A DNA stretch of 20,705 bases, taken from the IMG/VR virus record IMGVR_UViG_3300042882_000833, positions 1 to 20,705 of that record. One strand, written 5' to 3'. Below, piece after piece: positions 756-20,705 of this stretch (position 1 is its first letter; each line of letters begins with the position of its first letter). The stretch comes from a virus. The notes beneath the pieces were generated by a model. The model worked only from the letters and a program-made list of their open reading frames with translations, was not told the origin of the DNA and searched no databases. The translations under genes were made by a program, and so were the position numbers.

Positions 756-758
756 TAA

Positions 759-1313: not shown

Positions 1314-1314
1314 A

Positions 1315-1836: not shown

Positions 1837-1837
1837 T

Positions 1838-2419
1838 TTAATCCTTTTTCTTTATAATGTACACTCTACTAGGGCACCGACCTTTGATACCAGTGGTCTC
1901 AAAAGTGTCATCAATCGTCATATCTAATGCATCAACTAGATATCTAATTTCCTCATCGTGTATTTCTAACGGATCACTGGCCCTGCTATAATTGTCAATT
2001 TCAGTATAAGCGTGTTCAATATACAATATTCCATTGACATCAAGTTGATTTCGCCAAGTTGTTAAAACTTGAGTTGGATTGTAGCTATGATCAATTGCGT
2101 TGGAATATACAATGTCAAACAGCCCAACCCATTCACGATTTTCATTATGAAAATCCCATTGTACAGTCATTGGAAACTTGGTAGCAGTATGAGATATTTC
2201 TGTACCAATAATGGTAGCGTTGGGATAAAATTCTTTAAAGAATTTTTGTTCAGCAGCATTCCTAGTGCCGTGGCACAGTATATTTTTTGCAGTAGGCTGA
2301 CGCTGATTTATTTGTTTAATAGTTGCTCGATCAACCCAAATATTATTAATTTTTCTTACATTGGCTTCAATTTGGGCCGCTACATACTCGTCGTGGGTTT
2401 GGTATTGATATATTTTCAT
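1838..2419 (-). CDS. Class I SAM-dependent methyltransferase-like protein
   Basis: This 193-residue protein reads as a Methyltransf_11-type Rossmann domain. NILCHGTRNAAEQKFF (about 46-61) takes the place of the SAM loop, followed by IIGTEIS (70-76), where the glutamate would hold the SAM ribose. FDIVYSNAIDHSYNP (about 101-115) matches the FDxVxSxxxxxH motif, and LDVNGILYIEHA (about 126-137) matches LKPGGxLxIxxP. The loop CHGTRNAAE lacks the usual GxGxG, so the SAM pocket is unusual though similar forms occur in methyltransferases annotated from phages. The substrate is unknown; operon context suggests a sugar or glycan. There are 15 bases between it and the upstream gene, the largest gap in this operon. 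Confidence 0.55.
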   Translation of the reverse strand: MKIYQYQTHDEYVAAQIEANVRKINNIWVDRATIKQINQRQPTAKNILCHGTRNAAEQKFFKEFYPNATIIGTEISHTATKFPMTVQWDFHNENREWVGLFDIVYSNAIDHSYNPTQVLTTWRNQLDVNGILYIEHAYTEIDNYSRASDPLEIHDEEIRYLVDALDMTIDDTFETTGIKGRCPSRVYIIKKKD

Positions 2420-2434
2420 AATATTAGCCTATAT

Positions 2435-3127
2435 TTATGCAGTGCTAGTGCTCTGACTTTGCTTAACTATTGTGATGAAAGGATAATATTCTTCTAACCA
2501 CGGAAACAGTTGTAAGCATATAGTGGCATCATTGGGCCATACTCCATATTTCTTGTAAGCCCTAATAAATTTTTCAGCTGCCCGGGGCTTAACTATGTAA
2601 GCACTATTGCCTGAAAAGCCGTCGGGGATTCGACTGTCGTGTTCACGTTTACGTGTTAGTGGATGTGCACCTTCGGTGCCACGCTGGGTCATAATATTAC
2701 TGTGCTCTTTTCCATGATATCCACCACCGCAAGGATCATTGATTTGTATCGCACCGTTGAATTCGATACTGGGTAGTGGTCTCACAAAAACAGCATCATG
2801 TTCAAGAATCAACATAGGGTCATTGCCGATTGCACACTCTTTCCACAGTAAATAGTGACTCATGCTACAAGCCATTTTAGTCAGCACATTTTTAGCACGA
2901 TATGGAAATTGTTGCAGACTGGTGTAGACACACACAGTTTCTTTGGTATTATTATCGGCCCACGACCAGCGTAGATTTTCCTGTTGCATTATTTCCTGCA
3001 CATTTTTTGCTGTAACAGCAGGAAAAAGTTCTACCTCGAGACCATGAGTTGCGGCACTGCTGATACAACGTTGTGCCATATGTTCTGAATACTCGTGGCC
3101 GATGATGGTAATAACACGAGCTTTCAT
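2435..3127 (-). CDS. Glycosyltransferase family 25-like protein (LPS biosynthesis type)
   Basis: The chosen 230-residue protein starts MKARVITIIGH at 3127, where the ATG overlaps the upstream stop as ATGA. The frame stays open to 3262, but that extension lies wholly within the upstream gene and reads as non-protein-like sequence. GT25 features are visible: KMACSMSHYLLWKECA (84-99) matches the family (G)CxxSHxxxW motif, and LILEHDAVF (106-114) matches the ilEDDa metal-binding motif with H in place of the first D. An aromatic and Asp-rich C-terminal part (NDATICLQLFPWLEEYYPFI, near 200-219) follows. GT25 enzymes add galactose or glucose to LPS core or to protein hydroxylysine. Sugar and acceptor are not readable here. 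Confidence 0.68.
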   Translation of the reverse strand: MKARVITIIGHEYSEHMAQRCISSAATHGLEVELFPAVTAKNVQEIMQQENLRWSWADNNTKETVCVYTSLQQFPYRAKNVLTKMACSMSHYLLWKECAIGNDPMLILEHDAVFVRPLPSIEFNGAIQINDPCGGGYHGKEHSNIMTQRGTEGAHPLTRKREHDSRIPDGFSGNSAYIVKPRAAEKFIRAYKKYGVWPNDATICLQLFPWLEEYYPFITIVKQSQSTSTA

Positions 3128-3906
3128 AAATTGTGGATTTCTGTAATGATTTGATTGATACTTTTGTCTGCAGGAATGTGTGTCGCTAGAAAGAAATGTA
3201 CAAAGTAAGCGTCTGACAAATATTGATCTTCTATGCCACGGTACAAGGCATTCCAACGCCAATCTAAATTTTTAGTAGGCACATTATCATGTTTAATCCA
3301 ATAGTTTAGCAGAGTTTGGTCAGTGCTCCACCGCCAATTTCCTTCGCCATTTACAAATCTTTCAAACTCTGGTCTGCGTATAAATTGTTCTGAATTTTGT
3401 GCGTTTAAATATGATTGTAACTGATTCTTGCACAACATCAGACCCATATTGTAAAATTCAGCACCAAGATTATTCCAACGAAAATCTGCTTCTGATCTTA
3501 GTGGACCATATTGTCCTTCACTATATTTACGAATCTTTTTCTTGTGTTGTTCAGTCAATGGCATGTCACGCTCGGCTACAGCGCCAAACACCGCATCTCC
3601 TAGTTGATCAAATATATCGGGCGCCGTGGGCATGATGTAGATATCGCTATCAACAATACACACAGCATCATATTGATCCAAAAAATCAAACGCATTTTCT
3701 TTTTCAAATATAGGCAGATAGCCCAGTCGTTCTACTGCACCTTCACTGCGAAAACTATGCAATGGTCGTATACGAAGAATAGGCTCATGTTGTACGCGAT
3801 GCTCAATACCCCAACGTTGACAATAAGAGGCCACGCTGGCAATGCAGATTTCGTATAAGGGATTAGGTTTACCTACAGCTACTTGATAAATTAAATTTTT
3901 AGCCAT
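3124..3906 (-). CDS. GT-A fold glycosyltransferase (nucleotide-sugar transferase)
   Basis: The 260-residue protein starts MAKNLIYQ at the ATG 3906-3904, which overlaps the upstream stop by eight bases. The frame extends upstream to 4041 but only inside the neighbouring epimerase gene. AVCIVDSDIYI (81-91) carries a DxD motif (D86, D88) at the end of a hydrophobic strand, the metal and nucleotide-diphosphate site of GT-A enzymes. NMGLMLC (153-159) and WSTDQTLLNYW (193-203) are the later acceptor-side elements common in such proteins, and VHFF (236-239) near the end could provide the histidine ligand seen in GT8-like enzymes. It probably adds a hexose to a glycan. The family is not assigned firmly; GT8 or an unclassified phage GT-A family are the options. 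It is coupled to both neighbours by overlaps. Confidence 0.65.
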   Translation of the reverse strand: MAKNLIYQVAVGKPNPLYEICIASVASYCQRWGIEHRVQHEPILRIRPLHSFRSEGAVERLGYLPIFEKENAFDFLDQYDAVCIVDSDIYIMPTAPDIFDQLGDAVFGAVAERDMPLTEQHKKKIRKYSEGQYGPLRSEADFRWNNLGAEFYNMGLMLCKNQLQSYLNAQNSEQFIRRPEFERFVNGEGNWRWSTDQTLLNYWIKHDNVPTKNLDWRWNALYRGIEDQYLSDAYFVHFFLATHIPADKSINQIITEIHNL

Positions 3907-4603
3907 CGCGCATGATATTTTTAGTAGGCATCCACCCATGAGATTGTAAAAAGCCAATGTCGGCCTGGGTATGTAATCTTTCTCCTGTGGTTTCTTTGAT
4001 AGGTAAATGACCAAAACCTCGACTTTGCGCAAATTGATCAACTCGTGTAACAGTTCCTGTGCCTATATCAAGATATCGCGGAGTTTGATCTAAATTAATT
4101 AACAGATCGATAGCACTAACTACATCTTCTACGTGGGTCCAATCTCTTTCATGGGTGGTTAGATATTGTATTTTTCCTTTGAGCATCATGTCATAAAACA
4201 TGTCAGGTCGACTATCACTACCCCACACGGTGTGGAATCTCATGCCTGTACTGTTTGTTGGTGATAATTGTTCCATGGATTTTTTAGTGGTAGCGTAGGG
4301 ATTTAGCCACCATTCGTAAATTGATGATGAACTAGCATAAAACACTTTTTTATTATTTTCAGTTGCCCAGTTAAAAATAAGTTGACTGGCCATTACATTA
4401 GTGGCCCAGTATGCCTCAGGATCTTGCCAACTGGCCCGTACACCTGCCAAAGCTGCTAGATGTAGTACAAGATCGCAATGTCCATCAAATGCAAATTCTC
4501 GTATATCTCCTGGATATAATACAAATTCATATTTGTGTTTTAATAATTTTACTGTGTTCCGGCCTATGAATCCTTCATGGCCGGTTATTAATATGGTTTT
4601 CAT
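3899..4603 (-). CDS. NAD-dependent sugar epimerase/dehydratase (extended SDR)
   Basis: This 234-residue protein shows the signature of extended short-chain dehydrogenases that act on nucleotide sugars (UDP-glucose 4-epimerase, GDP-mannose or dTDP-glucose 4,6-dehydratase). The NAD-binding TGHEGFIG is at 7-14. HLAALAGV (48-55) matches the conserved HLAAxxxV strand. The active-site serine region is SSSSIY (91-96), and the catalytic YxxxK is Y103-K107. These enzymes epimerise or dehydrate the sugar of an NDP-sugar, so this gene could supply a modified donor to the flanking glycosyltransferases. At 234 residues it is well short of the usual 310-340, mainly in the C-terminal substrate domain, so substrate choice cannot be inferred. 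It overlaps the downstream gene by eight bases and the upstream gene as ATGA. Confidence 0.82.
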   Translation of the reverse strand: MKTILITGHEGFIGRNTVKLLKHKYEFVLYPGDIREFAFDGHCDLVLHLAALAGVRASWQDPEAYWATNVMASQLIFNWATENNKKVFYASSSSIYEWWLNPYATTKKSMEQLSPTNSTGMRFHTVWGSDSRPDMFYDMMLKGKIQYLTTHERDWTHVEDVVSAIDLLINLDQTPRYLDIGTGTVTRVDQFAQSRGFGHLPIKETTGERLHTQADIGFLQSHGWMPTKNIMRDG

Positions 4604-5397
4604 TGATATTTTCTTAGTTCTTTTTTAAATATTTCTAGATCTTTGCGTTTGCCTTTAGCACTCCATATACTGCTGGTGGGTTGCATACGCCAATCTACAT
4701 ATGATATGGGCAATAATCCTTTTTTATAATCAACTATGACACGATCTAGGCTGTGTTGATCTAGGAACCAATAAATGTTATCTTGCTCAATTTGTTCTTT
4801 TATGACTGCCGCTAATTTTTGTGCAAACTGCAAACACTCTGGTTTGTCAGTGTACAAGATAGCACCAGCCAAATGTCCACCTTTTTCTTTTTGATATAGA
4901 TAAAAATCCTTTTCACCATCGTCTGCAAATTGGGTTTCAAATGTACCACGCACTAGTCCATCTATATCAATCTCTAAAAATCGCCTGGGGGTAGTAACTA
5001 TTTCGGGCAAGCGCACAAATCTCATACAAGCATAATAGGTTTTTTTGATCCAGGCTGACAAATTGGCATTATCTGTGAATTGTTTTAGGCCTAACATTTT
5101 GTTTTTTCTACTGTGGTATGGCTCCGGTAAATCAGTCCTACCCCAAAACGCAAAGGCTGAGTCAAATTGCCCTGGTGCAGTAGTTTCCCAAGTTACACTA
5201 ATTCGATCGGTATTTTTACAATATTCTAATTGAGCTGGCGTAGGATCATATAAATGAAAATGCACTCCGTGATCAGTGTTTCTAACCACGCTGTTGGCCA
5301 ATGCAGGCCCAAATCTATCAAAATAAACAGCATCGGCGGCTGCATATATAAAAAATTGATTCTGGTCTAGGTTTCCGTGTAGTGGTGGTAGCATCAT
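4600..5397 (-). CDS. Putative GT-A-like glycosyltransferase, first gene of the minus operon
   Basis: A 265-residue protein without a confident family. It begins with a strand-turn segment (FFIYAAADAVYFDRFG, 15-30) typical of transferases that collect a nucleotide sugar. EIDIDGLVRG (142-151) offers a DxD-type motif after an RRF strand, HLAGAILYT (175-183) resembles the acceptor-side GG/AG-hydrophobic motif, and WFLDQHSLDRV (210-220) resembles the DQ..L.. segment of GT8-like proteins. The same order (DxD, then xAGxxxx, then DQ) recurs in the other GT-A proteins of this operon. The start is the first of two adjacent ATG codons at 5397; the second, at 5394, is equally possible. The promoter is the palindrome at 5399-5414, whose minus-facing TAAATA box lies nine bases upstream of the start. 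Its stop overlaps the next gene as ATGA. Confidence 0.5.
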   Translation of the reverse strand: MMLPPLHGNLDQNQFFIYAAADAVYFDRFGPALANSVVRNTDHGVHFHLYDPTPAQLEYCKNTDRISVTWETTAPGQFDSAFAFWGRTDLPEPYHSRKNKMLGLKQFTDNANLSAWIKKTYYACMRFVRLPEIVTTPRRFLEIDIDGLVRGTFETQFADDGEKDFYLYQKEKGGHLAGAILYTDKPECLQFAQKLAAVIKEQIEQDNIYWFLDQHSLDRVIVDYKKGLLPISYVDWRMQPTSSIWSAKGKRKDLEIFKKELRKYQ

Positions 5398-5398
5398 A

Positions 5399-5414
5399 GT
5401 TAAATATATTTAAC
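5399..5414. promoter_or_regulatory. Palindromic bidirectional late-type promoter
   Basis: GTTAAATATATTTAAC is a perfect 16-bp palindrome between two divergent operons. It contains TAAATA on the plus strand (5401-5406) and TAAATA on the minus strand (5412-5407), back to back. T4-like late promoters use TATAAATA at -10 with no -35 element, so each half is a plausible late -10 box. The plus start codon is 11 bases and the minus start codon 9 bases beyond its box, predicting 5' leaders of only a few bases. Promoter function is inferred from sequence only. Confidence 0.5.
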
Positions 5415-5417
5415 CGT

Positions 5418-6269
5418 ATGCGTGTGGCCTACTTTCCAAATCAATGTGCTTTAAACAGTGTTCCTGTCGTGCAGGCCATGCTAGATAGCCTACGCAACGC
5501 AGGCCATACCATTGAACCAAACAGCATGGATGCAGATGCTGTAGTAATATGGTCGGTATTGTGGTCAGGCCGTATGGCCGCCAATCAGGCAGTGTGGAGT
5601 CACTATAGAAGTCTGGGTCGTCCAGTCATTGTCATAGATATAGGTGCCTTGTATCGTGGCGAAACTTGGAAGATAGCCCTAAACTCCATCACGTCCAATG
5701 GTTACTACGGACACACAGAAAACCTGGACTGGGACCGTCCTAGAAAACTGGGCATCAGCCTGGCCATCAATGTCAGCCGCAATCCCAGGATCGTCATAGC
5801 CGCGCAACATGCCCGTAGTCTGCAGACAGTGGGTTTGGTCAGCATGGAAGGTTGGGTGGTGCAACAAGTACAACAACTACGCACAGTCACAGACCGTCCT
5901 ATTGTGGTGCGCCCCCACCCACGTAGTCCTTTGAACTGGGCCGGCCTGGTGCATTTGCCTCCGGATGTTGTCATAGAACAGCCACAAAAAATTGCCAATA
6001 CCTATGACAGCTACAACTTGGCCTTTGATTGCCATGCCATGGTCAATCATAATTCTGGCCCAGGCATACAGGCTGCATTGGCCGGAACTAGACCCATAGT
6101 TGATAGTTCCAGTCTGGCCTATCCTGTGAGTATCGGCATGGCCGATATTGACCGGCCTTACACAGCAGATAGAGATCAGTGGCTGGTAGAAATCTGCCAT
6201 ACCGAATACATCTTGCCAGAAATTGGTTCTGGATTGTGGCTACAGCGTCTGGAAACACAAATTGGATAA
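5418..6269 (+). CDS. GT-B-like polysaccharide glycosyltransferase (surface-glycan type)
   Basis: This 283-residue protein has a beta/alpha layout without membrane segments. VVRPHPRSP (163-171) matches the RPHPR/HP motif of CDP-glycerol glycerophosphotransferase-like and capsule-export KpsC/KpsS-like glycosyltransferases. NHNSGPGIQAALAGTRPIV (210-228) matches their conserved stretch in which a serine/glycine turn precedes the EAL-like helix and the G.P.V strand that hold the nucleotide. The first half (VIWSVLWSGRM, VIVIDIGALYRG) looks like the acceptor-side Rossmann half. The protein most likely transfers a sugar or polyol phosphate to a glycan; the exact reaction is not readable. It starts at the ATG 5418 behind the palindromic promoter. 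The gene is far richer in G+C (35 of 60 in row 5761) than the operon facing it. Confidence 0.5.
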   Translation: MRVAYFPNQCALNSVPVVQAMLDSLRNAGHTIEPNSMDADAVVIWSVLWSGRMAANQAVWSHYRSLGRPVIVIDIGALYRGETWKIALNSITSNGYYGHTENLDWDRPRKLGISLAINVSRNPRIVIAAQHARSLQTVGLVSMEGWVVQQVQQLRTVTDRPIVVRPHPRSPLNWAGLVHLPPDVVIEQPQKIANTYDSYNLAFDCHAMVNHNSGPGIQAALAGTRPIVDSSSLAYPVSIGMADIDRPYTADRDQWLVEICHTEYILPEIGSGLWLQRLETQIG

Positions 6270-7056
6270 ACTGGCCAAACGAGCACACAAACTAGCACAA
6301 CGTCAGCCCACAGTAGATCAAATGTTGGCGCCTGAGACCGTGATTACCGGACCCATAGATTGTGCCTGTGTTATACACGGCGACAGATATGATTGGTCTT
6401 ACGTGGAACGTTTATACAACATGTTGAGCCGTAATATTTCTGCAGGCATAAGATTGCATGTATATACCGAAGCCGAAAGAACAGTGCCTGCACCCATGAT
6501 CAAGCATGAGCTGGTGCCATGGCAACTGAAACGTGCTAATCGCGGATGGTGGTACAAAATGCAGTTGTTTAACCCAGAACATCATTCGGGTCCATTGCTG
6601 TATTTTGATCTAGACACAGTGATAGTTAGCAACATAGATTGGATCTGTCATCAGTCGCCGGATAACTTTTGGACTGTGAGAGATTTCAAGTATTTGTGGC
6701 GTGCCAATCACGTGGGTATAAATTCCAGTGTCATGTGGTGGAATACCGCCCACTATCAACATGTGTGGGACAGTTTCTGTGCCCAGGGCCTGGACAACAT
6801 GGTAAAACGCCATCATGGAGATCAGGACTTTTTGACTGCAACAATCCAGCCAAATCAGTGCAGATATCTAGATGTGAATCGGGTACAAAGTTGGCGCTGG
6901 CAGTGCCTGGACGGTGGCTATGATTTTCGCCGTCGACGCCACAAATGTCCAGGAACCGGTACCCAGATCTCAAACAGCGCCAGTGTATTAGTATTTCACG
7001 GAAATCCAAAACCTGCAGAAATCACTGATTCGGTTATCCTGCAACACTGGCAATGA
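6262..7056 (+). CDS. GT-A fold glycosyltransferase
   Basis: The core is clear: LLYFDLDTVIVSNID (112-126 with this start) contains the DxD motif D116/D118, preceded by GWWYKMQLF (95-103), the KxxxF segment common in nucleotide-sugar transferases. HHGDQDFLT further on is the D-Q/D acceptor-side motif, and VFHGNPKP near the end matches the HxxGxxKP motif that closes the active site in GT8-like enzymes. The start is uncertain. No ATG lies near the preceding stop; TTG at 6262 gives an eight-base overlap with the upstream gene and has GGAA at 6251-6254, while TTG 6223 and ATG 6322 are alternatives. With TTG 6262 the protein has 264 residues. Coupling to the upstream GT-B-like gene suggests the two act on one glycan. 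Confidence 0.68.
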   Translation: MDKLAKRAHKLAQRQPTVDQMLAPETVITGPIDCACVIHGDRYDWSYVERLYNMLSRNISAGIRLHVYTEAERTVPAPMIKHELVPWQLKRANRGWWYKMQLFNPEHHSGPLLYFDLDTVIVSNIDWICHQSPDNFWTVRDFKYLWRANHVGINSSVMWWNTAHYQHVWDSFCAQGLDNMVKRHHGDQDFLTATIQPNQCRYLDVNRVQSWRWQCLDGGYDFRRRRHKCPGTGTQISNSASVLVFHGNPKPAEITDSVILQHWQ

Positions 7057-8141: not shown

Positions 8142-9167
8142 ATGTCAACTATTCTCATTAAAAATGGGTCATATCGCAATCAACCCGTAAACGGTATGAT
8201 CTTTAACCTGGTCAAGGGTTTTCAAACTGGTGCCAAAGGAGGCTATGTGACAGTGCAAGCAGATGGCTATTTTGGCCCAGAAGTGCCCGAAGTGGTTCGT
8301 ATCAAAGTAGACAGCATTGAAGATCTAGAATTCGCCGGTGGCCAACCTGTGGACACACCCAAGGTCACCGTCCAGTCTGTGGAACCAGCAGAAACTGATG
8401 ATCAAGTCATGGATCGAATTGAACAACGATTTGATATCCTGGATCAGATGACCAAGGCTACCATAGCCGGTGATGTGCGAGCCATGATCGTGGTTGGCCC
8501 TCCTGGTGTGGGCAAGAGCTACGGTGTAGAAAAACAACTGGAGAAGTCTGGCTTGTTTGACAAACTCAGTGGTCGCAAGATCAAGTATGAAGTGATCAAA
8601 GGTGCCATGACTCCCATTGGTCTCTACTGCACTCTGTACAAACACTCAGATCCCAACAACGTTTTGGTGTTTGACGACTGTGACTCAGTGTTCCAAGATG
8701 ACTTGAGCTTGAACATTCTCAAGGCCGCCCTGGACTCAGGCAAGAAACGCAGGATCTACTGGAACTCAGACTCGGCCATGTTGCGCCGTGAAGGTGTGCC
8801 TGACTGCTTTGACTTCAAAGGTGCCTGTATCTTCATCACCAATTTGCAGTTCAGCAATCTCAAAAGCAAGAAACTGCAAGACCATTTGGAAGCCTTGCAG
8901 AGTCGTTGCCACTTCTTGGACTTGACTCTCAATACCATGCGTGATCGTTTCTTGCGTATCAAGCAGATCTTCCGCCAAGGACAACTGTTCAATGACTATG
9001 ATTTCAGCCCAGAACAAGGTGACGAAATCCTAAACTTCATGGATGCCAACAAAGATCGACTACGTGAAATGAGCCTGCGTATGGCCTTGAAGATCGCTGA
9101 CTTGACCAAGGTCAGTGCAGACAATTGGAAGGCCTTGGCTGCAAGCACTTGCATGAAAAACTCATAA
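8142..9167 (+). CDS. AAA+ family ATPase
   Basis: A 341-residue single-ATPase-domain protein. Walker A GPPGVGKS is at 119-126, Walker B VLVFDDCD at 174-181, sensor 1 IFITN at 230-234, and QSRCHFLDL (253-261) places R255 as a candidate arginine finger. The first ~85 residues form a separate basic and beta-rich region (KNGSYRNQPVNGMIFNLVKG) before an acidic linker. AAA+ proteins work as hexameric ATP-driven remodelers; the target is unknown. It is not one of the T4 clamp-loader subunits by layout (no zinc site or RFC-type SRC motif in the usual place, though QSRC is loosely similar), so gp44 was considered and not chosen. It is transcribed alone from a consensus promoter and ends before two tandem hairpins, which suggests high, independently controlled expression. 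Confidence 0.8.
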   Translation: MSTILIKNGSYRNQPVNGMIFNLVKGFQTGAKGGYVTVQADGYFGPEVPEVVRIKVDSIEDLEFAGGQPVDTPKVTVQSVEPAETDDQVMDRIEQRFDILDQMTKATIAGDVRAMIVVGPPGVGKSYGVEKQLEKSGLFDKLSGRKIKYEVIKGAMTPIGLYCTLYKHSDPNNVLVFDDCDSVFQDDLSLNILKAALDSGKKRRIYWNSDSAMLRREGVPDCFDFKGACIFITNLQFSNLKSKKLQDHLEALQSRCHFLDLTLNTMRDRFLRIKQIFRQGQLFNDYDFSPEQGDEILNFMDANKDRLREMSLRMALKIADLTKVSADNWKALAASTCMKNS

Positions 9168-9267: not shown

Positions 9268-10395
9268 ATGTCTTTTTGCTACTCACCTTGGACCAATATT
9301 GATATCAGCCCAACAGGCAATATAAGCCCTTGCTGTAAATTTCAAACACAATATTACGATCGCACTTATAATATCCAACAAGACTCGATTGCCGATTACT
9401 TGAACAGTGACATGCTGACCGAAGTCAAAAAAAACTTTGCAAACAATAAATGGCCAACCGGGTGTGAGCGTTGTAGGATTGAAGAACAAAATAGTATTGC
9501 CAGCAAACGTGAGTTGGACTGGGAACGTTGGCAAGCAACATACAAAGAAATTGAATTAACTGATTCTCAATTCATAACCGCTAGTATAGCGTTCGGAAAT
9601 ACCTGTAATTTAAAATGTTTAACATGCAGTTCGTATGCCAGCAGTCGTTGGCAAAAAGAATACAGAGAGATCTACAATGTAGACTGGCCGCATGTTAAAT
9701 TTTACAAACGAGACTTTGTAGAAAGATTTGTGCAACTGGCTCCCGGATTGATACATCTTGACCTACCAGGCGGTGAACCCTTTCTGAGCGGTATAGATGA
9801 ACAGAAAAAATTACTGCAACATTACATAGATATAGGTCGATCTTCGCAAATCACTCTGCATTATACTACCAATTCAACTATTTTTCCTGATGATTCATGG
9901 TGGCAATTATGGAACAGCTTTAAAGAAATTGATATCCAACTTAGCATAGATGCTGTAGGCGACAGATATGAATACATAAGATATCCAGCCAATTGGAGCC
10001 AGGTGGTACTTAATGTTGATCAATACATTGCCAAAAGTCAACACATGACCAATCTCAAACTCAGTGTCAGTCATACCGTAAGCGCATACAACGTGTATTA
10101 TCTTGACGAATTTTTTTCTTGGTGTTACAATATAGGTTTACCTAGGCCGTGGTTGGGCCGAGTGCATAATCCCAAACACATGCGCCCTACTGTTTGGCCT
10201 GCAGAGGTTCGTGATATTATCGCACAGCATCTTAGACAGAGCAATTATCCAGATGTGTATGCCTGGGCAACAATGTTGGAAAATGAAGATGATAGTGTGT
10301 TTTTTCAAATGTTTCTACAGCGAAGACAACAACATGATCAATATCGTGGATTAGATTTCAACATTACATTTTCAGAACTGGCAAAACACACATGA
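9268..10395 (+). CDS. Radical SAM protein with N-terminal twitch domain (rSAM 1)
   Basis: A 375-residue enzyme. The radical SAM 4Fe-4S site is CNLKCLTC (C113, C117, C120; Cx3Cx2C), followed by the SAM-contact motif GGEP at 168-171 and the later strand LHYTTNST (197-204). Before it lies a half-SPASM (twitch) domain with C4, C22-C23 and C66-C69, which would hold an auxiliary Fe-S cluster. This order is that of N-terminal-twitch radical SAM proteins, common in phages and of unknown reaction; relatives with C-terminal SPASM or twitch domains modify peptides or small molecules. A motif EYIRYPANWSQV (235-246) recurs in rSAM 2. The gene is leaderless, has no ribosome binding site, and overlaps uvsW as ATGA, so the two are translated together. 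Confidence 0.85.
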   Translation: MSFCYSPWTNIDISPTGNISPCCKFQTQYYDRTYNIQQDSIADYLNSDMLTEVKKNFANNKWPTGCERCRIEEQNSIASKRELDWERWQATYKEIELTDSQFITASIAFGNTCNLKCLTCSSYASSRWQKEYREIYNVDWPHVKFYKRDFVERFVQLAPGLIHLDLPGGEPFLSGIDEQKKLLQHYIDIGRSSQITLHYTTNSTIFPDDSWWQLWNSFKEIDIQLSIDAVGDRYEYIRYPANWSQVVLNVDQYIAKSQHMTNLKLSVSHTVSAYNVYYLDEFFSWCYNIGLPRPWLGRVHNPKHMRPTVWPAEVRDIIAQHLRQSNYPDVYAWATMLENEDDSVFFQMFLQRRQQHDQYRGLDFNITFSELAKHT

Positions 10396-11852
10396 GAAAA
10401 GCCACAATCATTATAAAAGACGAAGTTAATATCAAGATCGAAGGGCTTGAACTTGATGCTCGCCGTAGTTTAGTAAATGCATTCAAATATGATGTTCCGG
10501 GAGCCAGATACTTGCCCGCGGTCAGACTTGGCCGTTGGGATGGCAAGGTCAGCTATTTCCAACTGGGTGGCAGCACTTATGTGAACCTGTTGCCAGAGAT
10601 CATTCCCATACTGGAAAAGTTCAACTATGACATTGAGCTGGATGATCAGCGTGATTATTCTACTACGTTTGAGTTTGAAAAGGTAACTGAACAAACATTC
10701 AGTCACATTGCCTGGGGCCCAGGACATCCCCTAGAAGGCAAGCCAATGGAACTGCGTGACTATCAAGTCGACATTATCAACAACTTTCTTGAGAATCCAC
10801 AATGCATACAAGAGATTGCCACCGGCGCAGGCAAGACAGTTATCACAGCCGCATTATCAAATGCCGTGGCACCATATGGCAGGACCATTGTTATTGTGCC
10901 CAACAAGAGTCTAGTAACGCAAACAGAAAAGGACTACATCAACATGCAACAGGATGTGGGTGTTTACTTTGGCGACCGCAAGGAGTGGGGACGACAGCAC
11001 ACAATCTGTACATGGCAAAGTTTAAATGTGCTGTTGAAGAATACCAAGAACAGTGTAGGCGATGTTACCATTGGTGAGTTCTTGGAAGATGTGGTATGCG
11101 TTATTGTTGACGAAGTGCATATGGCCAAGGCTGATGCATTAAAGAGCTTGCTCACAGGTGTAATGGCTAAAATACCTTTGCGTTGGGGACTCACAGGAAC
11201 CATACCCAAAGAACCCTATGAGTTCCAGGCATTGAAGTGTAGTCTTGGTCCGGTGATCAATCAACTCAGTGCCAGCGAGTTACAGGATCGCGGTGTCTTG
11301 GCACAATGCCATGTCAACGTGGTACAGTTGGTGGATCATGCCGAGTTCTCTAACTATCAAAGTGAACTAAAGTTCTTGCTAGAAGAACCCGACAGGCTCA
11401 AAACCATGGCACAATTGATAGCACAGGTCAATGCCACGGGCAATACCCTGGTCTTGGTAGACCGTGTGGCCGCAGGTCATGCCCTGGTGGACCTGCTGGG
11501 AGACCAGGCAGTGTTTGTCAGCGGTGCAACCAAAGCCAAGGACCGGCAAGACGAATATGACGAAGTGGCAACCAGCACTGGCAAGATAATTGTTGCCACC
11601 TACGGTGTTGCTGCTGTGGGTATTAATTTGCCTAGGATTTTTAATCTGGTGCTGGTTGAGCCCGGCAAGAGCTTTGTCCGGGTCATCCAATCCATCGGCC
11701 GAGGAATACGAAAAGCTGAAGACAAAGATCATGTGCAGATCTGGGACGTGACCAGCACCTGTAAATTTGCCAAAAGACACCTGACCAAACGCAAACAGTT
11801 CTATCGAGAAGCAAATTATCCTTTTACGCAAGAGAAGCTAGAGTGGAAATAA
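10392..11852 (+). CDS. uvsW: UvsW-like superfamily 2 DNA/RNA helicase
   Basis: A 486-residue protein, close to T4 UvsW (about 500). SF2 motifs appear in order: Q-region LRDYQ (121-125), Walker A ATGAGKT (143-149), Ia VPNKSLVTQ (169-177), II DEVH (240-243), III LTGT (267-270), IV VLVDR (354-358), V VATYGVAAVGINLP (401-414), VI QSIGRGIRK (433-441). The N-terminal ~100 residues hold the GRWDGKVSYF segment (47-56), matching the small substrate-binding domain of UvsW. UvsW unwinds R-loops and migrates branched DNA, ending origin-dependent initiation and helping fork restart. It overlaps the radical SAM gene by four bases (ATGA) and precedes a PLP-enzyme-like gene by five bases. Confidence 0.9.
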   Translation: MRKATIIIKDEVNIKIEGLELDARRSLVNAFKYDVPGARYLPAVRLGRWDGKVSYFQLGGSTYVNLLPEIIPILEKFNYDIELDDQRDYSTTFEFEKVTEQTFSHIAWGPGHPLEGKPMELRDYQVDIINNFLENPQCIQEIATGAGKTVITAALSNAVAPYGRTIVIVPNKSLVTQTEKDYINMQQDVGVYFGDRKEWGRQHTICTWQSLNVLLKNTKNSVGDVTIGEFLEDVVCVIVDEVHMAKADALKSLLTGVMAKIPLRWGLTGTIPKEPYEFQALKCSLGPVINQLSASELQDRGVLAQCHVNVVQLVDHAEFSNYQSELKFLLEEPDRLKTMAQLIAQVNATGNTLVLVDRVAAGHALVDLLGDQAVFVSGATKAKDRQDEYDEVATSTGKIIVATYGVAAVGINLPRIFNLVLVEPGKSFVRVIQSIGRGIRKAEDKDHVQIWDVTSTCKFAKRHLTKRKQFYREANYPFTQEKLEWK

Positions 11853-13268: not shown

Positions 13269-13714
13269 TGGATAAACTAAGCATAGCCAATGAAATGGCC
13301 CAGTTTGATCGCAAGAACCGAAAGTTCTATGATGATCTCACCGACGAAGAACGCAAAAAATTCAGCAACTATCTCATGATACGCTGGGGTAGTTCGGTAC
13401 AGGGGTCAAAAGAACTACAGGAGTTTTATGTGATTGCCACCAACGAGAGATTGAACAAAAGATTTTTTGATATCAACCGCCATCCTCGACTGCAATGGCT
13501 CACAGCCACCACAGTGAGTCCGGCACTGGGCACACAACGACATCCGTGGATTGCTCCCAAGAAACGAGAAGCCGGTGCCAGCAGTGTTAGAAAACAATTG
13601 GCCGAGCTGTATCCACATTTCAAAGATGATGAACTGGACTTGTTGGCCCGGATCACTACAAAAAAAGACATAGATGATTATTTAAAAGCCGCAGGACAAG
13701 ACGCAAAGAAATGA
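13268..13714 (+). CDS. Candidate clamp-loader small subunit (gp62-like)
   Basis: A 148-residue protein starting at GTG 13268, coupled to the previous stop as TAGTG. The pattern of a short helical N-terminus, then FSNYLMIRWGSS (32-43), then FYVIATNERLNKRFFDINRHPRLQWL (53-78) and a basic PWIAPKKR (93-100) resembles the small clamp-loader subunits annotated in marine T4-like phages, where a (F/Y)(M/L)(I/N)RW/F...S segment is followed by NE.N and a basic IxxKKR-type segment. The final helix (DDELDLLARITTKKDIDDYL) is typical of their C-terminus. gp62 joins gp44 to load the gp45 sliding clamp. The gp44 partner and gp45 are not in this window. Resemblance to T4 gp62 itself is weak, so the call rests on pattern and operon context. 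Confidence 0.5.
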   Translation: MDKLSIANEMAQFDRKNRKFYDDLTDEERKKFSNYLMIRWGSSVQGSKELQEFYVIATNERLNKRFFDINRHPRLQWLTATTVSPALGTQRHPWIAPKKREAGASSVRKQLAELYPHFKDDELDLLARITTKKDIDDYLKAAGQDAKK

Positions 13715-14385
13715 CTTATACCTGTCAGTATTGTAAAAAGGATTTTATAAAGGAAAGCAGTCTTGCAGTTCATAGTTGCGAGCCGCGTCGGCGTCGCATG
13801 GAAAAAGATGAACCAGGTGTGCGCTTGGGATTCCATGCTTACTTAAAATTCTATGAGCTTACACAAGGTAGTGCCCGGTTAAAAACCTATGATGACTTTT
13901 GTGAAAGTCCCTACTATCGTGCCTTTGTAAAATTTGGTCGTTACTGTGTAGATATCCGTGCTGTAAATCCTGCAAGATTTGTAGAATGGGTATTGAAACA
14001 AAACAAAAAGATTGATCACTGGTGTCGAGACACCATCTATACCGAATACTTGATTGACTACCTGCGTGTAGAAAACATCAATGATGCCCTGGCCCGAGCC
14101 ATGGAGTTTTCAATAGACTGGAGTGAGGAGACTGGCAATCCAGCCGAGGATTGCCTGCGTTATGGCAACACCAATGCTATGGTCTATGCTGTGACCGCCG
14201 GCCGCATCAGTCCTTGGATCATTTATAATTGTGAAAGTGGACAACGGTTCTTGAGCGAACTAGATGCCACACAAATTGCCATGATCTGGTCCTATATCGA
14301 TTCGGATATCTGGATGAAAAAGTTTGCAGACTATGTGGCTGATCAAGAATATGTTCGAGAAATGTTACAGAAAGCAGGTTGGTGA
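13711..14385 (+). CDS. C2HC zinc-finger protein, possible replication/helicase-loading factor
   Basis: A 224-residue protein that overlaps the upstream gene as ATGA. A single zinc finger opens it: C5, C8, H21, C23 in Cx2C-x12-HxC spacing, followed by a strongly basic RRRR (26-29). The remainder is predicted to be helical and rich in aromatic residues, with FHAYLKFYELTQG (41-53), FCESPYYRAFVKFGRYC (63-79) and, near the end, GRISPWIIYNCESGQRFL and an IW-rich helix. The helix followed by a G.ISP....Y....L segment faintly recalls T4 gp59, the loader of the gp41 helicase, but I cannot show homology. Nucleic-acid binding through the finger and basic patch is the safest inference. Confidence 0.65.
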   Translation: MTYTCQYCKKDFIKESSLAVHSCEPRRRRMEKDEPGVRLGFHAYLKFYELTQGSARLKTYDDFCESPYYRAFVKFGRYCVDIRAVNPARFVEWVLKQNKKIDHWCRDTIYTEYLIDYLRVENINDALARAMEFSIDWSEETGNPAEDCLRYGNTNAMVYAVTAGRISPWIIYNCESGQRFLSELDATQIAMIWSYIDSDIWMKKFADYVADQEYVREMLQKAGW

Positions 14386-14963
14386 TGAGTGCAGATATTG
14401 ATATTGATTTGGCCGACAGAGATCAACTGCTGGCATTGATTCAAGCCACACCAGCCAGACAAATGCATCAAGGACAGGTACGTCGTCACAACAGCGGTGT
14501 ATATGTGACAGACATTCCTTATGATCCGGTCAATGCTTGTGCCGCTATTGACTATGAAACTGCTGAACAACTTGGCTATTTCAAAGTTGATCTATTGAAC
14601 ATGACGGTGTACAAGTTGATCCAGAGTGCAGAGCACTATGAACAAATGCTGGCACAGGAACCCACCTGGTCGCGACTATGGACGGATCCTACCTGGGCCA
14701 GCGAGCTGGTTCACGTGGGTAATTATGCAACATTGTTGCAAAGCATGAAACCCGACAGCATACCCAGGATGGCGGCCTTTATCAGCATCATCAGGCCTGG
14801 CAAGGCACACCTACAGGACAAGGATTGGGCCACAGTGTTTACGTCTGTGTGGGATGGCGATGCCAGCCGCGGATTTGTGTTCAAGAAATCTCATGCCCTT
14901 GGTTACGCAACTTTGGTGGCACTGCACATGAATCTGCTCAGTCAATCCTGCGCACCAGTGTAA
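14385..14963 (+). CDS. Miniature DNA polymerase III alpha (DnaE)-like palm-domain protein
   Basis: A 192-residue protein whose ATG at 14385 shares one base with the upstream stop (TGATG); in-frame TTG and GTG codons at 14379 and 14382 lie inside the upstream gene. The sequence reads as DnaE catalytic-core landmarks in order. ADIDIDLADRDQLL (3-16) matches PDFDIDF..RRDEV with D6 and D8 as the paired catalytic aspartates. RRHNSGVYVTDIP (33-45) matches the vHAAGVVIs segment. LGYFKVDLLNM (63-73) matches LGLxKxDxLGL with D69 as the third catalytic aspartate. MAAFISIIRPG (129-139) matches the ALYRPG motif, and FVFKKSHALGYATL (164-177) matches FNKSHAxAYaxL. The PHP, clamp-binding, OB and most finger regions are absent; DnaE is about 1160 residues. 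It may be a minimal or split polymerase, or a decoy that binds replisome parts. It is last in its operon. Confidence 0.68.
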   Translation: MSADIDIDLADRDQLLALIQATPARQMHQGQVRRHNSGVYVTDIPYDPVNACAAIDYETAEQLGYFKVDLLNMTVYKLIQSAEHYEQMLAQEPTWSRLWTDPTWASELVHVGNYATLLQSMKPDSIPRMAAFISIIRPGKAHLQDKDWATVFTSVWDGDASRGFVFKKSHALGYATLVALHMNLLSQSCAPV

Positions 14964-15315
14964 TGCTTTTGCGCTTGCTTTTTCTGCTGGCCATCTCGCC
15001 GAGACTACACACAGGGCCATGCAAGATTTCAAGATCTTTGTTGGTAAATGTTCTTAGATAGGGCCGAAACATATCCCAATCGCCCTTGAGGAATATGTTG
15101 ATAGGTATGCTTCTGTTACTTTCCCACCACCATACATTGGCCAATTCAATAAATTTTTGTTTGATTTCTGGGTGTTGTATGGACCCAAAATCATAGATAG
15201 TGGTAACTGCACTGTCTTGGTTTTGTATGATGCCCACATATTCTGTGCTGGCATACACACACAAGGTGATAAATGGGTATTTTTCAGCCAATCGGGCAAA
15301 CAGATCATGATTCAT
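14938..15315 (-). CDS. Conserved hypothetical phage protein
   Basis: A 125-residue protein on the minus strand, starting MNHDLFARLAEKYPFITLCVY. The order of a short helix, beta strands EYVGIIQNQD (25-34), an aromatic run WWWESNRSIPINIFL (62-76) and a basic tail (RKSKRKSITLVRR) looks like a family I believe is common and unnamed in marine T4-like phages; no function is known to me. A late-type TAAATA box lies nine bases upstream of its ATG, so the transcript would be nearly leaderless. Its 3' end overlaps the 3' end of the DnaE-like gene by 26 bases in convergent orientation, and no terminator is visible between them. Confidence 0.75.
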   Translation of the reverse strand: MNHDLFARLAEKYPFITLCVYASTEYVGIIQNQDSAVTTIYDFGSIQHPEIKQKFIELANVWWWESNRSIPINIFLKGDWDMFRPYLRTFTNKDLEILHGPVCSLGEMASRKSKRKSITLVRRID

Positions 15316-16568: not shown

Positions 16569-17552
16569 ATGATTGATGTGACCGCTTATCTGCCCGCACG
16601 ACGCAAGCCCAGTGCTTCGGGTTGGATCAGTTTCAATGCACCCTGTTGTGAGCACAATGGCGAAAGCCGAGATCGCCGCAGTCGTGGCGGTATCAAAACC
16701 ACAGATGCGGGTTGGAGCTTTCATTGTTTCAACTGTGGCTACACTGCCAGCTTTATCATAGGTCGTAATCTCAGTTTCAAGGCAAGAAAATTGTTGTCAT
16801 GGCTGGGAGTACCCGCAGAGGAAATAGAACGCATCAATCTTGAAAGCCTGCGTCATCGCAACATGGAAGGCTTGCTGACAGATCGTCAAAGGTTAAGCAA
16901 CACCTTGCAAGGCATAGAGTTTGAGGAACGCGACCTGCCACCGGCTGCAGAACTGATCACCACAAAACACAATACGCATTGGGATTACTTGCGTGGCCGT
17001 GCCGTGCCCGAAGACTATCCTGTGATGACTGTGCTGGAAAATGACAGTGTGCATTGGACTCGTCCGCAGGTCATTGTGCCATTTACCTATGACAATCGTG
17101 TGGTAGGCTACAGCAGTCGCATGTTGGACAACCGCCAGCCCCGGTACATACACGACACGCAACTGGGCTATGTGTTTGGCACAGACTTACAAGGTGCCGA
17201 CTGGCGCTATGCCATAGTGGTTGAAGGAGTGTTTGATGCACTCAGTATCGGCGGCTTGGCTGTGTTACATGCTGAGATCAATGATGCACAGGTCAGACTC
17301 ATACGTAGCCTGGATCGTGAGATCATAGTGGTTCCAGATCAAGATGCGGCAGGCATGAAGTTGGTGGATCGTGCGGTAGAGCTAGGATGGAGTGTGAGCA
17401 TGCCCGACTGGCCTGTGGATGTCAAAGATGTCAACGATGCTGTGATTCGCTGGGGAAGATTAGCAACTTTGATAACTATCATGCAGGCCCGAGAAACCAG
17501 TCGAATCAAAATAGAACTAAGGAAGAAATCACTTGTTAAAAGACAACTTTAA
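16569..17552 (+). CDS. DNA primase (T4 gp61-like)
   Basis: A 327-residue primase. The N-terminal zinc-binding part has C26, C27, H29 and C53xxC56 (CCEH ... CFNC), matching the CHC2-type finger that reads the priming site. The TOPRIM catalytic domain shows VVEGVFDALSI (217-227), with the conserved glutamate E219, and VPDQDAAG (255-262), the DxD pair for metal. This is the layout of T4 gp61 and DnaG-type primases, and length agrees with gp61 (342). It makes RNA primers for lagging-strand synthesis with the gp41-like helicase two genes downstream. The C-terminal end overlaps the next gene by 20 bases. It heads an operon with two radical SAM genes and the helicase. Confidence 0.88.
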   Translation: MIDVTAYLPARRKPSASGWISFNAPCCEHNGESRDRRSRGGIKTTDAGWSFHCFNCGYTASFIIGRNLSFKARKLLSWLGVPAEEIERINLESLRHRNMEGLLTDRQRLSNTLQGIEFEERDLPPAAELITTKHNTHWDYLRGRAVPEDYPVMTVLENDSVHWTRPQVIVPFTYDNRVVGYSSRMLDNRQPRYIHDTQLGYVFGTDLQGADWRYAIVVEGVFDALSIGGLAVLHAEINDAQVRLIRSLDREIIVVPDQDAAGMKLVDRAVELGWSVSMPDWPVDVKDVNDAVIRWGRLATLITIMQARETSRIKIELRKKSLVKRQL

Positions 17553-18666
17553 AAGTATCACAGAGTCTCAAGATTTCTTTTGCAATTATTATGACCAAGG
17601 ATTGTTTATAGGTAGCACTCCCCAGGGACAAAATTCAATTGCAATGTGTTGCTACCAAAATAAAAAAATCATTGATGTGGTTGAATTTGATCATCCTTAT
17701 CTACAAGACCTACGAACAGAAGCCAAAAACAAAGTTCCAGCGGTGTGTGATCCAGCGTGCAAATCATCAAAATATCACAATGAGAGATTGCGCACCAGGC
17801 TTGAACAATACTGGACTGATTCGGGTGTTGAGATAAAAAAATTACATCTTGAGCAAAGTTTAATTTGCAACTTGACTTGTATATCTTGTAGCAGCCGTTA
17901 CAGCAGTGCATGGTCAAAAGATTACAAAATATTTGATCCTCATGCTCATACGGTCCAATTAAAAAAATATCCTGATAGAGTTTGGAAAAATCTCAATTTT
18001 TCTAGTCTTGAACATGTGCATTTCACCGGCGGCGAACCTTTGCTTAATTTTGATAATTTTTTGATCTTAGAACATCTGGCCAGCATTGGTAGACTGAATC
18101 AGGTCACACTCACTTACAATACCAATGGAACTGTGAGAGTATCAAATAAACTTGTTGAATTATGGAAACAAGCCAAGTGGGTGAGATTACATTTTAGTTT
18201 GGATGGCAGCGGTTCTACTTTTGAATATACCAGATATCCGGCCAACTGGCAACAGGTACAAGAAAACATTCAGTGGTATAGACAACTACCAGATCCTTGT
18301 ATATTGATCGAAGTCAATGCAATTGTAGGCATACATAATGTGTTTAACTTGGATGACTTTTATCAGTGGTGGAAACAAAATTGTCAGACTGGCAATCAAG
18401 GAGACAATAGCCATATATTTGTTAAAGCAATTGCACCCAGTTCATATGGCGGCCGAGTATTGAGCCTGACTCACATGCCCAAACAATTTGAACAGCACGC
18501 ACAGGATATGTTACAATCACTGAGTGACTTGCCTGGGGCCAGCGATTTGATTTCTCTGGTAAGTCAACAAAGTGACATGCAATGGTTAGAATATTTTGAA
18601 AAATTAGACAATTTAAGAGGCACAAATTGGCGAGCATCTCTGACAGGACCTATAATTACAATTTGA
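17533..18666 (+). CDS. Radical SAM protein with N-terminal twitch domain (rSAM 2)
   Basis: A 377-residue enzyme paralogous to rSAM 1. The cluster site is CNLTCISC (C112, C116, C119), GGEP is at 166-169, and TYNTNGT (194-200) is the following strand. The N-terminal twitch cysteines are C17, C39-C40 and C72-C76; the last pair is spaced Cx3C instead of the Cx2C of rSAM 1 and 3. EYTRYPANWQQV (231-242) repeats the motif seen in rSAM 1. The start is TTG 17533, supported by AAGGAAG at 17519-17525 with a seven-base gap; no ATG lies nearby. It overlaps the primase gene by 20 bases and is four bases from the helicase start. It is richer in A+T than both neighbours (23 G+C in row 18001, against 31 in rows sampled from each). 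The reaction is unknown. Confidence 0.85.
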   Translation: MLKDNFKSITESQDFFCNYYDQGLFIGSTPQGQNSIAMCCYQNKKIIDVVEFDHPYLQDLRTEAKNKVPAVCDPACKSSKYHNERLRTRLEQYWTDSGVEIKKLHLEQSLICNLTCISCSSRYSSAWSKDYKIFDPHAHTVQLKKYPDRVWKNLNFSSLEHVHFTGGEPLLNFDNFLILEHLASIGRLNQVTLTYNTNGTVRVSNKLVELWKQAKWVRLHFSLDGSGSTFEYTRYPANWQQVQENIQWYRQLPDPCILIEVNAIVGIHNVFNLDDFYQWWKQNCQTGNQGDNSHIFVKAIAPSSYGGRVLSLTHMPKQFEQHAQDMLQSLSDLPGASDLISLVSQQSDMQWLEYFEKLDNLRGTNWRASLTGPIITI

Positions 18667-18670
18667 TACT

Positions 18671-20074
18671 ATGTTAAAAGATTACGGACTTGAAGTCCAA
18701 CGCTTGTTCTTAGAAATGATGTTGCAGGACGCAGAAAGCTATGTGCGTGTGCAGAACATTTATAACCCAGAAAACTTTGATAGAAGTTTGCGACCTGCGG
18801 CTGAGTTTATAGCCCGGCACAGTGACGATCACAAGACTTTGCCCACCACAGAACAGATTGCAGCCAGCACAGGTGTGCGACTGAATCATATTCCTGACTT
18901 GAACGACGGACACTTTGAATGGTTCATGGACGAGTTTGAAGGCTTTACTAGACGCCAAGAACTAGAACGGGCAATCCTAAAATCAGCAGACTTGCTGGAA
19001 AAAGGTGAATATGATCCAGTGGAGAAACTGATCAAAGATGCGGTGCAGATCAGCTTGACCAAGGACATGGGCACAGACTATTTTGCAGATCCGCAAGCAC
19101 GTATCAACAAATACTTTAATAGCGGTGGACAGGTGTCAACAGGTTGGCCACAGATGGACAAGATCTTGTATGGTGGATTCAGCAGAGGTGAGCTAAACAT
19201 ATTCGCAGGTGGATCAGGATCGGGCAAGAGCTTGGTCATGATGAACATAGCCCTGAGTTGGTTGCAAGCAGGACTCAGTGGCGTGTATATCAGTTTAGAA
19301 CTCAGTGAAGAACTGTGTGCGTTGAGGACTGATGCCATGTTGGCCGGAATGAGCACCAAAGAGATCCGCAAGGACATTGATCAGACCGAACTCAAGGTCA
19401 AACTTGTGAGCAAGAAAGCTGGACAGTACCGTATCAAGGCCCTGCCAGCACAGAGCAACATCAATGACATACGAAGCTACATCAAAGAAGTACAAGTGCA
19501 AACAGGACTAAAGGTAGACTTTGTCATGTGTGATTACCTGGACTTGTTGATGCCGGTAAGTGCAAAAGTCAGCCCCAATGACCTGTTTGTCAAAGACAAG
19601 TATGTGAGCGAAGAACTGCGTAACTTGGCCAAAGAGCTCAATGTGTTGTTTGTGACAGCGAGTCAGTTGAATCGTAGTGCTGTGGAAGAAATTGAATTTG
19701 ATCACAGTCATATCTCAGGCGGTATAAGCAAGATCAACACAGCCGACAATGTGTTTGGAATCTTTACAAGTAGAGCCATGCGTGAGCGTGGCAAGTATCA
19801 GATCCAATGTATGAAGAGTCGTAGCAGTACAGGCGTAGGACAAAAGATTGACTTGGACTACAACATTGAAACCATGCGTATCACTGATCCTGGTGAGGAA
19901 GCTGGGCCGGTTAATTCATTTGCCAAAGGCAATTTGCTTGACAGCATCAAAGCAAAAAGCACAATGATCAACAAAGAAACTGTAGATGTTGATCCTGGTG
20001 GAATTAGTAAAGTTACTGCCGATGTGCAAAGTGCTAAACTAAAACAGCTATTGGGACAAATCAAACAGTCATGA
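18671..20074 (+). CDS. Replicative DnaB-like helicase (T4 gp41-like)
   Basis: A 467-residue helicase, close to T4 gp41 (475). The N-terminal helical part (1-130) ends in a linker; the RecA-type motor follows with STGWPQMDKILYGGFSRGEL (156-175), Walker A GGSGSGKS (180-187), the catalytic glutamate strand YISLELSEEL (206-215), Walker B VDFVMCDYLDLL (282-293) and SQLNR (331-335), the H3-like motif. The KSRSS segment near 378 fits the arginine-finger/H4 region. As a hexamer it unwinds the fork on the lagging strand and works with the gp61-like primase encoded in the same operon. The ATG is four bases after the rSAM 2 stop, and the stop overlaps rSAM 3 as ATGA. Confidence 0.9.
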   Translation: MLKDYGLEVQRLFLEMMLQDAESYVRVQNIYNPENFDRSLRPAAEFIARHSDDHKTLPTTEQIAASTGVRLNHIPDLNDGHFEWFMDEFEGFTRRQELERAILKSADLLEKGEYDPVEKLIKDAVQISLTKDMGTDYFADPQARINKYFNSGGQVSTGWPQMDKILYGGFSRGELNIFAGGSGSGKSLVMMNIALSWLQAGLSGVYISLELSEELCALRTDAMLAGMSTKEIRKDIDQTELKVKLVSKKAGQYRIKALPAQSNINDIRSYIKEVQVQTGLKVDFVMCDYLDLLMPVSAKVSPNDLFVKDKYVSEELRNLAKELNVLFVTASQLNRSAVEEIEFDHSHISGGISKINTADNVFGIFTSRAMRERGKYQIQCMKSRSSTGVGQKIDLDYNIETMRITDPGEEAGPVNSFAKGNLLDSIKAKSTMINKETVDVDPGGISKVTADVQSAKLKQLLGQIKQS

Positions 20075-20705
20075 CCAATCTTTATTGCTCAATGATACAT
20101 GGCGGGTTGAATATTGATTTCAAGGTAACCAATATTGACAATCAAGCTGTAATAAGACATTGTTGTTTGCGTAATGATGCTTTTCCTGTGGAAATTGATC
20201 ATAATTTTTGGCGGAATAAAAAATTAGAAACGCTGAGAGAAACTAATAAAAAAAATATATGGGATTCTGGTTGTTCAAACTGTGAAAGATTAGAATCTTC
20301 AAATGAGGTCAGTTTTAGAACTGGAATGAATGAAGGCCTAAATATTTTTGGACAATACGACACAACAGGACCATCACGCATTGATCTCATGTTTGACATT
20401 AGCTGTAATTTAGCTTGTCGTATTTGTAGTCCTCGTGACAGCACATATTGGCAACGACATCTTAAAGAACATGGACTATGGGATCAACCGGTATCAATAC
20501 CAAGAAATAAATACAACGTAATTGAATCTTTATCTAAACTTGATCTTAGCAATCTACATCAATTGGTATTTTGCGGTGGTGAAACGTTGTTGGGGCAAGA
20601 ATATTGGGATGTAGCAGAATGGCTAGGCAACAATGTTCCCAATGCCAAACAACAATTGACCTTGTGTTTTCAAACCAACGGCACCCAACCAATACTTCCT
20701 AAAAA
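20071..20705 (+). CDS. Radical SAM protein with N-terminal twitch domain (rSAM 3), 3'-partial
   Basis: The frame is open from the ATG at 20071, which overlaps the helicase stop as ATGA, to the right edge, giving 211 residues. The twitch cysteines are C6, C31-C32 and C68-C71. The radical SAM site is CNLACRIC (C112, C116, C119), followed by CGGET (168-172), a GGE motif with T in place of the usual proline. The TNGT strand near residue 203 matches rSAM 1 and 2. The C-terminal half is outside the window, so the RYPANW motif cannot be checked. It is the most AT-rich of the three (20 G+C in row 20161). No function beyond radical SAM chemistry can be assigned. Confidence 0.82.
   Translation, partial: MTNLYCSMIHGGLNIDFKVTNIDNQAVIRHCCLRNDAFPVEIDHNFWRNKKLETLRETNKKNIWDSGCSNCERLESSNEVSFRTGMNEGLNIFGQYDTTGPSRIDLMFDISCNLACRICSPRDSTYWQRHLKEHGLWDQPVSIPRNKYNVIESLSKLDLSNLHQLVFCGGETLLGQEYWDVAEWLGNNVPNAKQQLTLCFQTNGTQPILPK

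Follow-up and report, generated by a model that had tools for sequence, protein, structure and literature searches.

How a protein of 192 residues can carry the catalytic landmarks of a bacterial replicative DNA polymerase, and what such a protein does in a phage, are the questions raised by a gene at 14385-14963 (+) of an uncultivated virus (IMG/VR record IMGVR_UViG_3300042882_000833, positions 1 to 20,705; this stretch of 20,705 nucleotides is hereafter referred to as the window). The original prediction, made from the letters alone, described the product as a miniature core of the DNA polymerase III alpha subunit (DnaE) and left four options: a minimal polymerase, one half of a split enzyme, a repair polymerase or a replisome decoy. 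Here we describe a computational analysis of the protein and its relatives, which indicates that it is probably the chain contributing the catalytic aspartates to a minimal C-family DNA polymerase that is split in two, in a T4-like large phage.

The open reading frame is exactly as predicted, with an ATG start and 192 codons plus stop, and its ATG shares one base with the stop of the gene before it. The protein belongs to the PHROGs family phrog_11778, annotated as "DNA polymerase" (E = 8.8e-54; residues 3-187 of 192 against profile positions 7-193 of 197), and partly matches phrog_405, the full-length DnaE family (E = 1.7e-6). Single-sequence searches of Pfam and the PDB with the 192-residue protein gave no significant match; the significant matches came only from profiles, PHROGs and the structure model. 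All five predicted landmarks are present in DnaE order. In Escherichia coli DnaE, PDFDVDF supplies D401, D403 and D405, and KFDFLGL supplies D555; of these four, D401, D403 and D555 are catalytic (PMC8485763). As the catalytic aspartates are the first two of PDFDVDF, their counterparts in DIDID (residues 4-8; 14394-14408, +) are D4 and D6, with D8 corresponding to D405; the original assignment to D6 and D8 was one aspartate off, whereas its placing of D69 at D555 stands. D69 lies in FKVDLLNM (residues 66-73; 14580-14603, +), in which K67 and L71 correspond to K553 and L557. HNSGVYV (residues 35-41; 14487-14507, +) matches HAGGVVI of DnaE, with H35 at H511 and G38 at G514, and IIRPGK (residues 135-140; 14787-14804, +) matches ALFRPGP, with R137 at R639 and P138 at P640. 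Finally, FKKSHALGYA (residues 166-175; 14880-14909, +) matches FNKSHSAAYA and places Y174 at Y764 and H170 at H760, which is presumed to be the steric gate that excludes ribonucleotides from E. coli DnaE (PMC8485763). A strict regular expression for the ordered motifs found no match in 200,000 shuffled versions of the protein, and these shuffles, together with the conservation described below, rule out a chance string of motifs.

The protein thus shares with bacterial DnaE (E. coli b0184) the palm fold, the catalytic aspartates, K553, H511, R639 and the steric gate, but has 192 residues against 1160, and the PHP, thumb, clamp-binding, OB and tau-binding regions, along with the C-terminal domains, of the complete replicase are absent. 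The predicted compression of the spacing between landmarks is real. D405 and H511 are 106 residues apart in E. coli DnaE and 27 here, the thumb region being gone, and RPG and FNKSH are 117 residues apart in DnaE and 29 here, with the loss of about 90 residues, and hence most, of the fingers, including RRAMGKK. The GS motif of DnaE is likewise encoded elsewhere, as set out below.

An AlphaFold2 model built from an 87-sequence alignment of IMG/VR homologs has a mean pLDDT of 92.0 and a pTM of 0.83. In a Foldseek search of the PDB with this model, the 11 best matches were all Pol III alpha (Thermus aquaticus, Mycobacterium tuberculosis and E. coli), the best with E = 9e-4 and a probability of 1.00, and everything past Pol III alpha had E values of 1.5 or higher; significant and near-significant matches therefore comprised Pol III alpha alone, although the TM-scores were modest (0.37-0.51 on the query). 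The named top matches among viral models were phage Pol III alpha or DNA polymerases, and a profile-profile comparison aligned residues 33-141 with E. coli DnaE 509-643 (E = 4e-8). The two PHROGs families, the profile-profile alignment and the structure matches bear out the proposed homology: the 192-residue protein is a genuine conserved palm/finger fragment of the C family (DnaE/Pol III alpha).

Homologs are numerous. A tblastn search with the protein retrieved 148 phage records, 88 of them matching over at least 80% of its length at about 28-41% identity, and those inspected were jumbo phages of the RaK2/121Q, PA5oct, Atu_ph07/Phosso, SCTP-2 and XacN1/RAS14 groups; IMG/VR holds hundreds more, including some 75-100% identical. 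Weak matches in Streptomyces phages carry the annotation DnaE-like Pol III alpha; the single such record opened, that of phage Zemlya, encodes an ordinary full-length phage DnaE and not a split form. In a set of 168 distinct homologs with identities down to about 30%, D4, D6, D8, H35, G38, K67, D69, L71, R137, P138, K140, H170 and Y174 are invariant (168/168), whereas G139, K168 and S169 vary freely. The catalytic triad, the conservation of which the original prediction had put forward as a check, accordingly never varies, nor does D8. In a small comparison set of DnaE proteins, including one phage PHP-less form, the invariant core includes D401, D403, D405, H511, G514, K553, D555, L557, R639, P640, R709 and H760; all of these except R709 have invariant counterparts in the phage protein, and K140 is a further residue fixed throughout the split family. 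The pN/pS of the gene against close relatives is about 0.19, a value obtained with saturated synonymous sites.

The GRGS nucleotide-binding motif of DnaE is absent from the 192-residue chain, which starts at about DnaE residue 400, and is found in a second protein of its relatives. Searching the phages RaK2, Atu_ph07, Phosso and Paride with PF07733 identified one other gene in each, encoding 169-177 residues and belonging to phrog_11127 (hereafter the N-half, the phrog_11778 protein being the C-half). The last 75 residues of this partner match E. coli DnaE 319-393 (E = 7e-9), within the GRGS-bearing palm segment at about DnaE 317-393, and contain GVGRGSS, the GS motif, which is invariant among 67 sequences. 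All PDB sequence matches of the partner are Pol III alpha (best E = 4e-7). Its AlphaFold2 model has a pLDDT of 84.7, and the top 15 PDB structures found with it by Foldseek are all bacterial replicative polymerases of the Pol III alpha/PolC type, with weaker E values (0.08 and up). Because the partner alignment ends at FERFLN and the C-half resumes at about residue 400, the cut lies in the short stretch before the first catalytic strand. In relatives, the GRGS-bearing segment that precedes the C-half region in DnaE has a gene of its own, and this favours, among the options originally listed, one half of a split enzyme.

The two half genes lie 11-224 kb apart in the relatives measured. The 320-kb contig G001, with a C-half 81% identical to that of the window, carries the N-half (22551-23072, -), the C-half (125028-125591, -) and an 890-residue family B polymerase (around 311-312 kb). 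The N-half gene was not found within the 20.7-kb window record, which is too short to show whether this virus has it or a family B polymerase. Both halves occur in 22 of 26 large relatives, comprising 18 of 22 large records and all four isolates; the four records without one half are contigs of 221-280 kb and possibly fragments. Across 22 genomes, the pairwise distances of the two halves correlate (r = 0.90; 0 of 5000 permutations), as would also be expected from plain vertical inheritance.

Such a system was described by Iyer et al. 2021 (PMC7824862), who reported a phage-specific minimal Pol III alpha alongside a family B polymerase in group 2.2 jumbo phages, found its NTP-binding and Mg2+/template-binding parts to be separate proteins encoded far apart, suggested that the halves possibly cooperate in one-strand synthesis or repair, and proposed that the minimal enzyme models the ancestral state. 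A truncated half of 172 residues had been noticed in the CBB genome paper (PMC5259590), and our literature search found no experimental work on the split minimal Pol III alpha. The window protein belongs to this family published in 2021: the family and the kind of phage are the same (relatives of RaK2, 121Q, Atu_ph07 and PA5oct), and its relatives carry the same separate NTP-binding and Mg2+/template halves together with a family B polymerase. The window virus differs in being uncultivated, with about 35-41% identity to the isolates. To the published description the present analysis adds the exact position of the cut, the finding that the steric gate is retained, invariance across 168 sequences, figures for gene linkage, and a carrier that is not a jumbo phage. 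The last is Alishewanella phage Slicko01 (OQ508956.1, 141 kb), which encodes both halves about 11 kb apart (79020-79532, equivalent to L118:3713-4225 in our locus set, and 67597-68157, L314) and a family B polymerase; the split enzyme therefore extends beyond jumbo phages.

A family B polymerase is present in 25 of the 26 large relatives (21 of 22 large records and all four isolates), and the surprise voiced in the original prediction, that a DnaE core should stand alongside such an enzyme, holds. Two close relatives additionally encode a single-chain, PHP-less DnaE-like protein of 557 residues (L289:2052-3725, +, in G001; L290:750-2423, -, in G008), which matches PF07733 (E = 3e-37) and PF17657 (E = 1e-14). 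Like the split enzyme, it is a C-family protein with all the core motifs from the same kind of phage; unlike it, it is a single chain with fingers (WRRAFAKK) and a thumb-sized insert, encoded by a separate gene in the same genomes. Three polymerases are thus possible in these two relatives, namely the family B enzyme, the split mini Pol III and the 557-residue protein. RaK2 has a DnaQ-like gene nearby, which suggested a Pol III core equipped with a DnaQ exonuclease, but we rejected this: an RNase_T-type exonuclease is encoded in only 9 of 22 relatives and is missing from the closest ones, so a DnaQ-type exonuclease is not part of the unit.

Downstream of the C-half in the window are a Toprim primase of the T4 gp61 type (16569-17552, +), found in all 40 close relatives with at least 3 kb of downstream sequence, and a DnaB-like replicative helicase of the T4 gp41 type (18671-20074, +), found in all 21 with at least 5.2 kb; upstream lies a UvsW-type helicase (10392-11852, +), found in 40 of 43 with at least 3 kb of upstream sequence. 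The clamp-loader candidate that the original prediction placed nearby proved weak, as the AAA+ ORF at 8142-9167 belongs to phrog_1250 (E = 1e-85), a family of unknown function, and matches a clamp-loader family with E = 1e-3. The true gp44 adjoins the N-half, not the C-half, in relatives: a gp44-type clamp loader follows the N-half in 59 of 59 loci where the flank suffices, and in 71 of 80 N-half loci overall. A GroES-like gene follows the N-half gene in 76 of these 80 loci (L200-L279).

Two small genes flank the mini polymerase directly. The upstream neighbour (13711-14385, +; phrog_11058) is found in 147 of 160 related loci and shows a weak C2H2 zinc-finger match at its N terminus, and could serve the mini polymerase as an accessory protein. 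On the other side, a gene for 125 residues (14938-15315, -; phrog_11637) runs antisense, its 3′ end overlapping the 3′ end of the mini-polymerase gene; a gene of this type lies on the opposite strand in 148 of the 160 loci and on the same strand in none. The replication cluster of the window also contains radical-SAM genes (9268-10395 and 17533-18666; phrog_14086), one of them between the primase and gp41 genes, and an ORF at 20071-20703 resembles them by eye; among relatives these genes are sporadic. At 3-7056, adjoining the replication genes, lies a mainly minus-strand block of methyltransferase-like, epimerase and glycosyltransferase-like ORFs.

Four other readings of the C-half bear on these observations. 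A decayed remnant of a captured host dnaE, which the loss of most of DnaE might suggest, is exceedingly improbable and already refuted by conservation, since 168 distinct sequences all retain an uninterrupted, full-length reading frame, with fixed synteny, the low pN/pS and an invariant active site. Hardly more credible is a standalone 192-residue polymerase that needs no partner. The three catalytic aspartates are held and the single chain has a confident predicted fold, but the chain begins at about DnaE 400 without the GS motif, found instead in the product of a second conserved gene, and the absence of the nucleotide-binding palm segment disfavours the minimal polymerase on its own. A catalytically silent structural or regulatory subunit, which would bind primer-template, dNTP or host Pol III without polymerising, as a scaffold or a host-replisome decoy, deserves more weight, but is unlikely. 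It would fit with the missing thumb, PHP and clamp-binding regions, with the loss of most of the fingers including R709, and with phages that already own a family B replicase; against it, the metal ligands, the K553 counterpart and the steric gate, needless for a scaffold, are invariant in 168 of 168 sequences, while positions 139, 168 and 169 vary. As every retained catalytic residue is invariant, the decoy among the original options is disfavoured.

The main rival concerns the role of a split polymerase rather than its nature, and assigns it to repair, in particular gap repair, translesion synthesis or gap filling away from the replication fork. Minimal distributive polymerases are typical of repair, and the conserved upstream neighbours include uvsW, which acts in recombination and repair. 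One-strand synthesis or repair was also the suggestion of Iyer et al. 2021 (PMC7824862). The fixed neighbours, however, include the fork proteins primase, gp41 and gp44, yet T4-like phages pack such genes together, and we regard a repair role as possible but doubtful.

Under the preferred reading, a two-chain polymerase, the two chains would associate to rebuild one nucleotidyltransferase active site, in which the partner would give the GS motif and its helices to hold the dNTP triphosphate, the C-half would give D4, D6 and D69 with two Mg2+ ions, and H170 of the C-half would select the deoxyribose. The R390 of FERFLN aligns with an invariant glutamate in the partner, and a search for a separate fingers gene in 22 relatives found none. 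Given this change from arginine to glutamate, and with no counterpart of R709 (RRAMGKK), triphosphate binding must differ from that of DnaE. On this sequence comparison, polymerase activity of the split pair cannot be taken for granted.

As to function, the C-half is locked beside the primase and gp41 helicase and the N-half beside gp44, and thumb, PHP, clamp-binding and most finger elements are absent. From these features and by analogy, we tentatively suggest a distributive auxiliary polymerase that may add a short stretch of DNA to RNA primers, or close small gaps, and then give way to the family B replicase. The precedent is Bacillus subtilis, in which DnaE, with DnaG and DnaC, extends primers for PolC (PMC5627055). 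The likeness, drawn from gene order, would be purely functional, in that a C-family polymerase additional to the main replicase is linked to primase and helicase; the B. subtilis DnaE is a full-length single chain, and the main replicase there is PolC, not a family B enzyme. The fuller proposal, that the pair is the smallest natural C-family polymerase (about 370 residues), is active, takes primers from the primase-helicase and passes them to the family B replicase, is more speculative still.

Both half genes have been located in the cultured phages 121Q (gp16 and gp56), RaK2, Paride (Paride_0017 and Paride_0087), Atu_ph07 and Slicko01, making a direct test possible. If the pair is active, it would be a natural split polymerase, and its roughly 370 residues would represent the core needed by C-family replicases, which bears on the origin of DnaE. 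It would also form part of a two-family replisome small enough to reconstitute, in which a phage would pair a bacterial-type polymerase with one of the archaeo-eukaryotic type.
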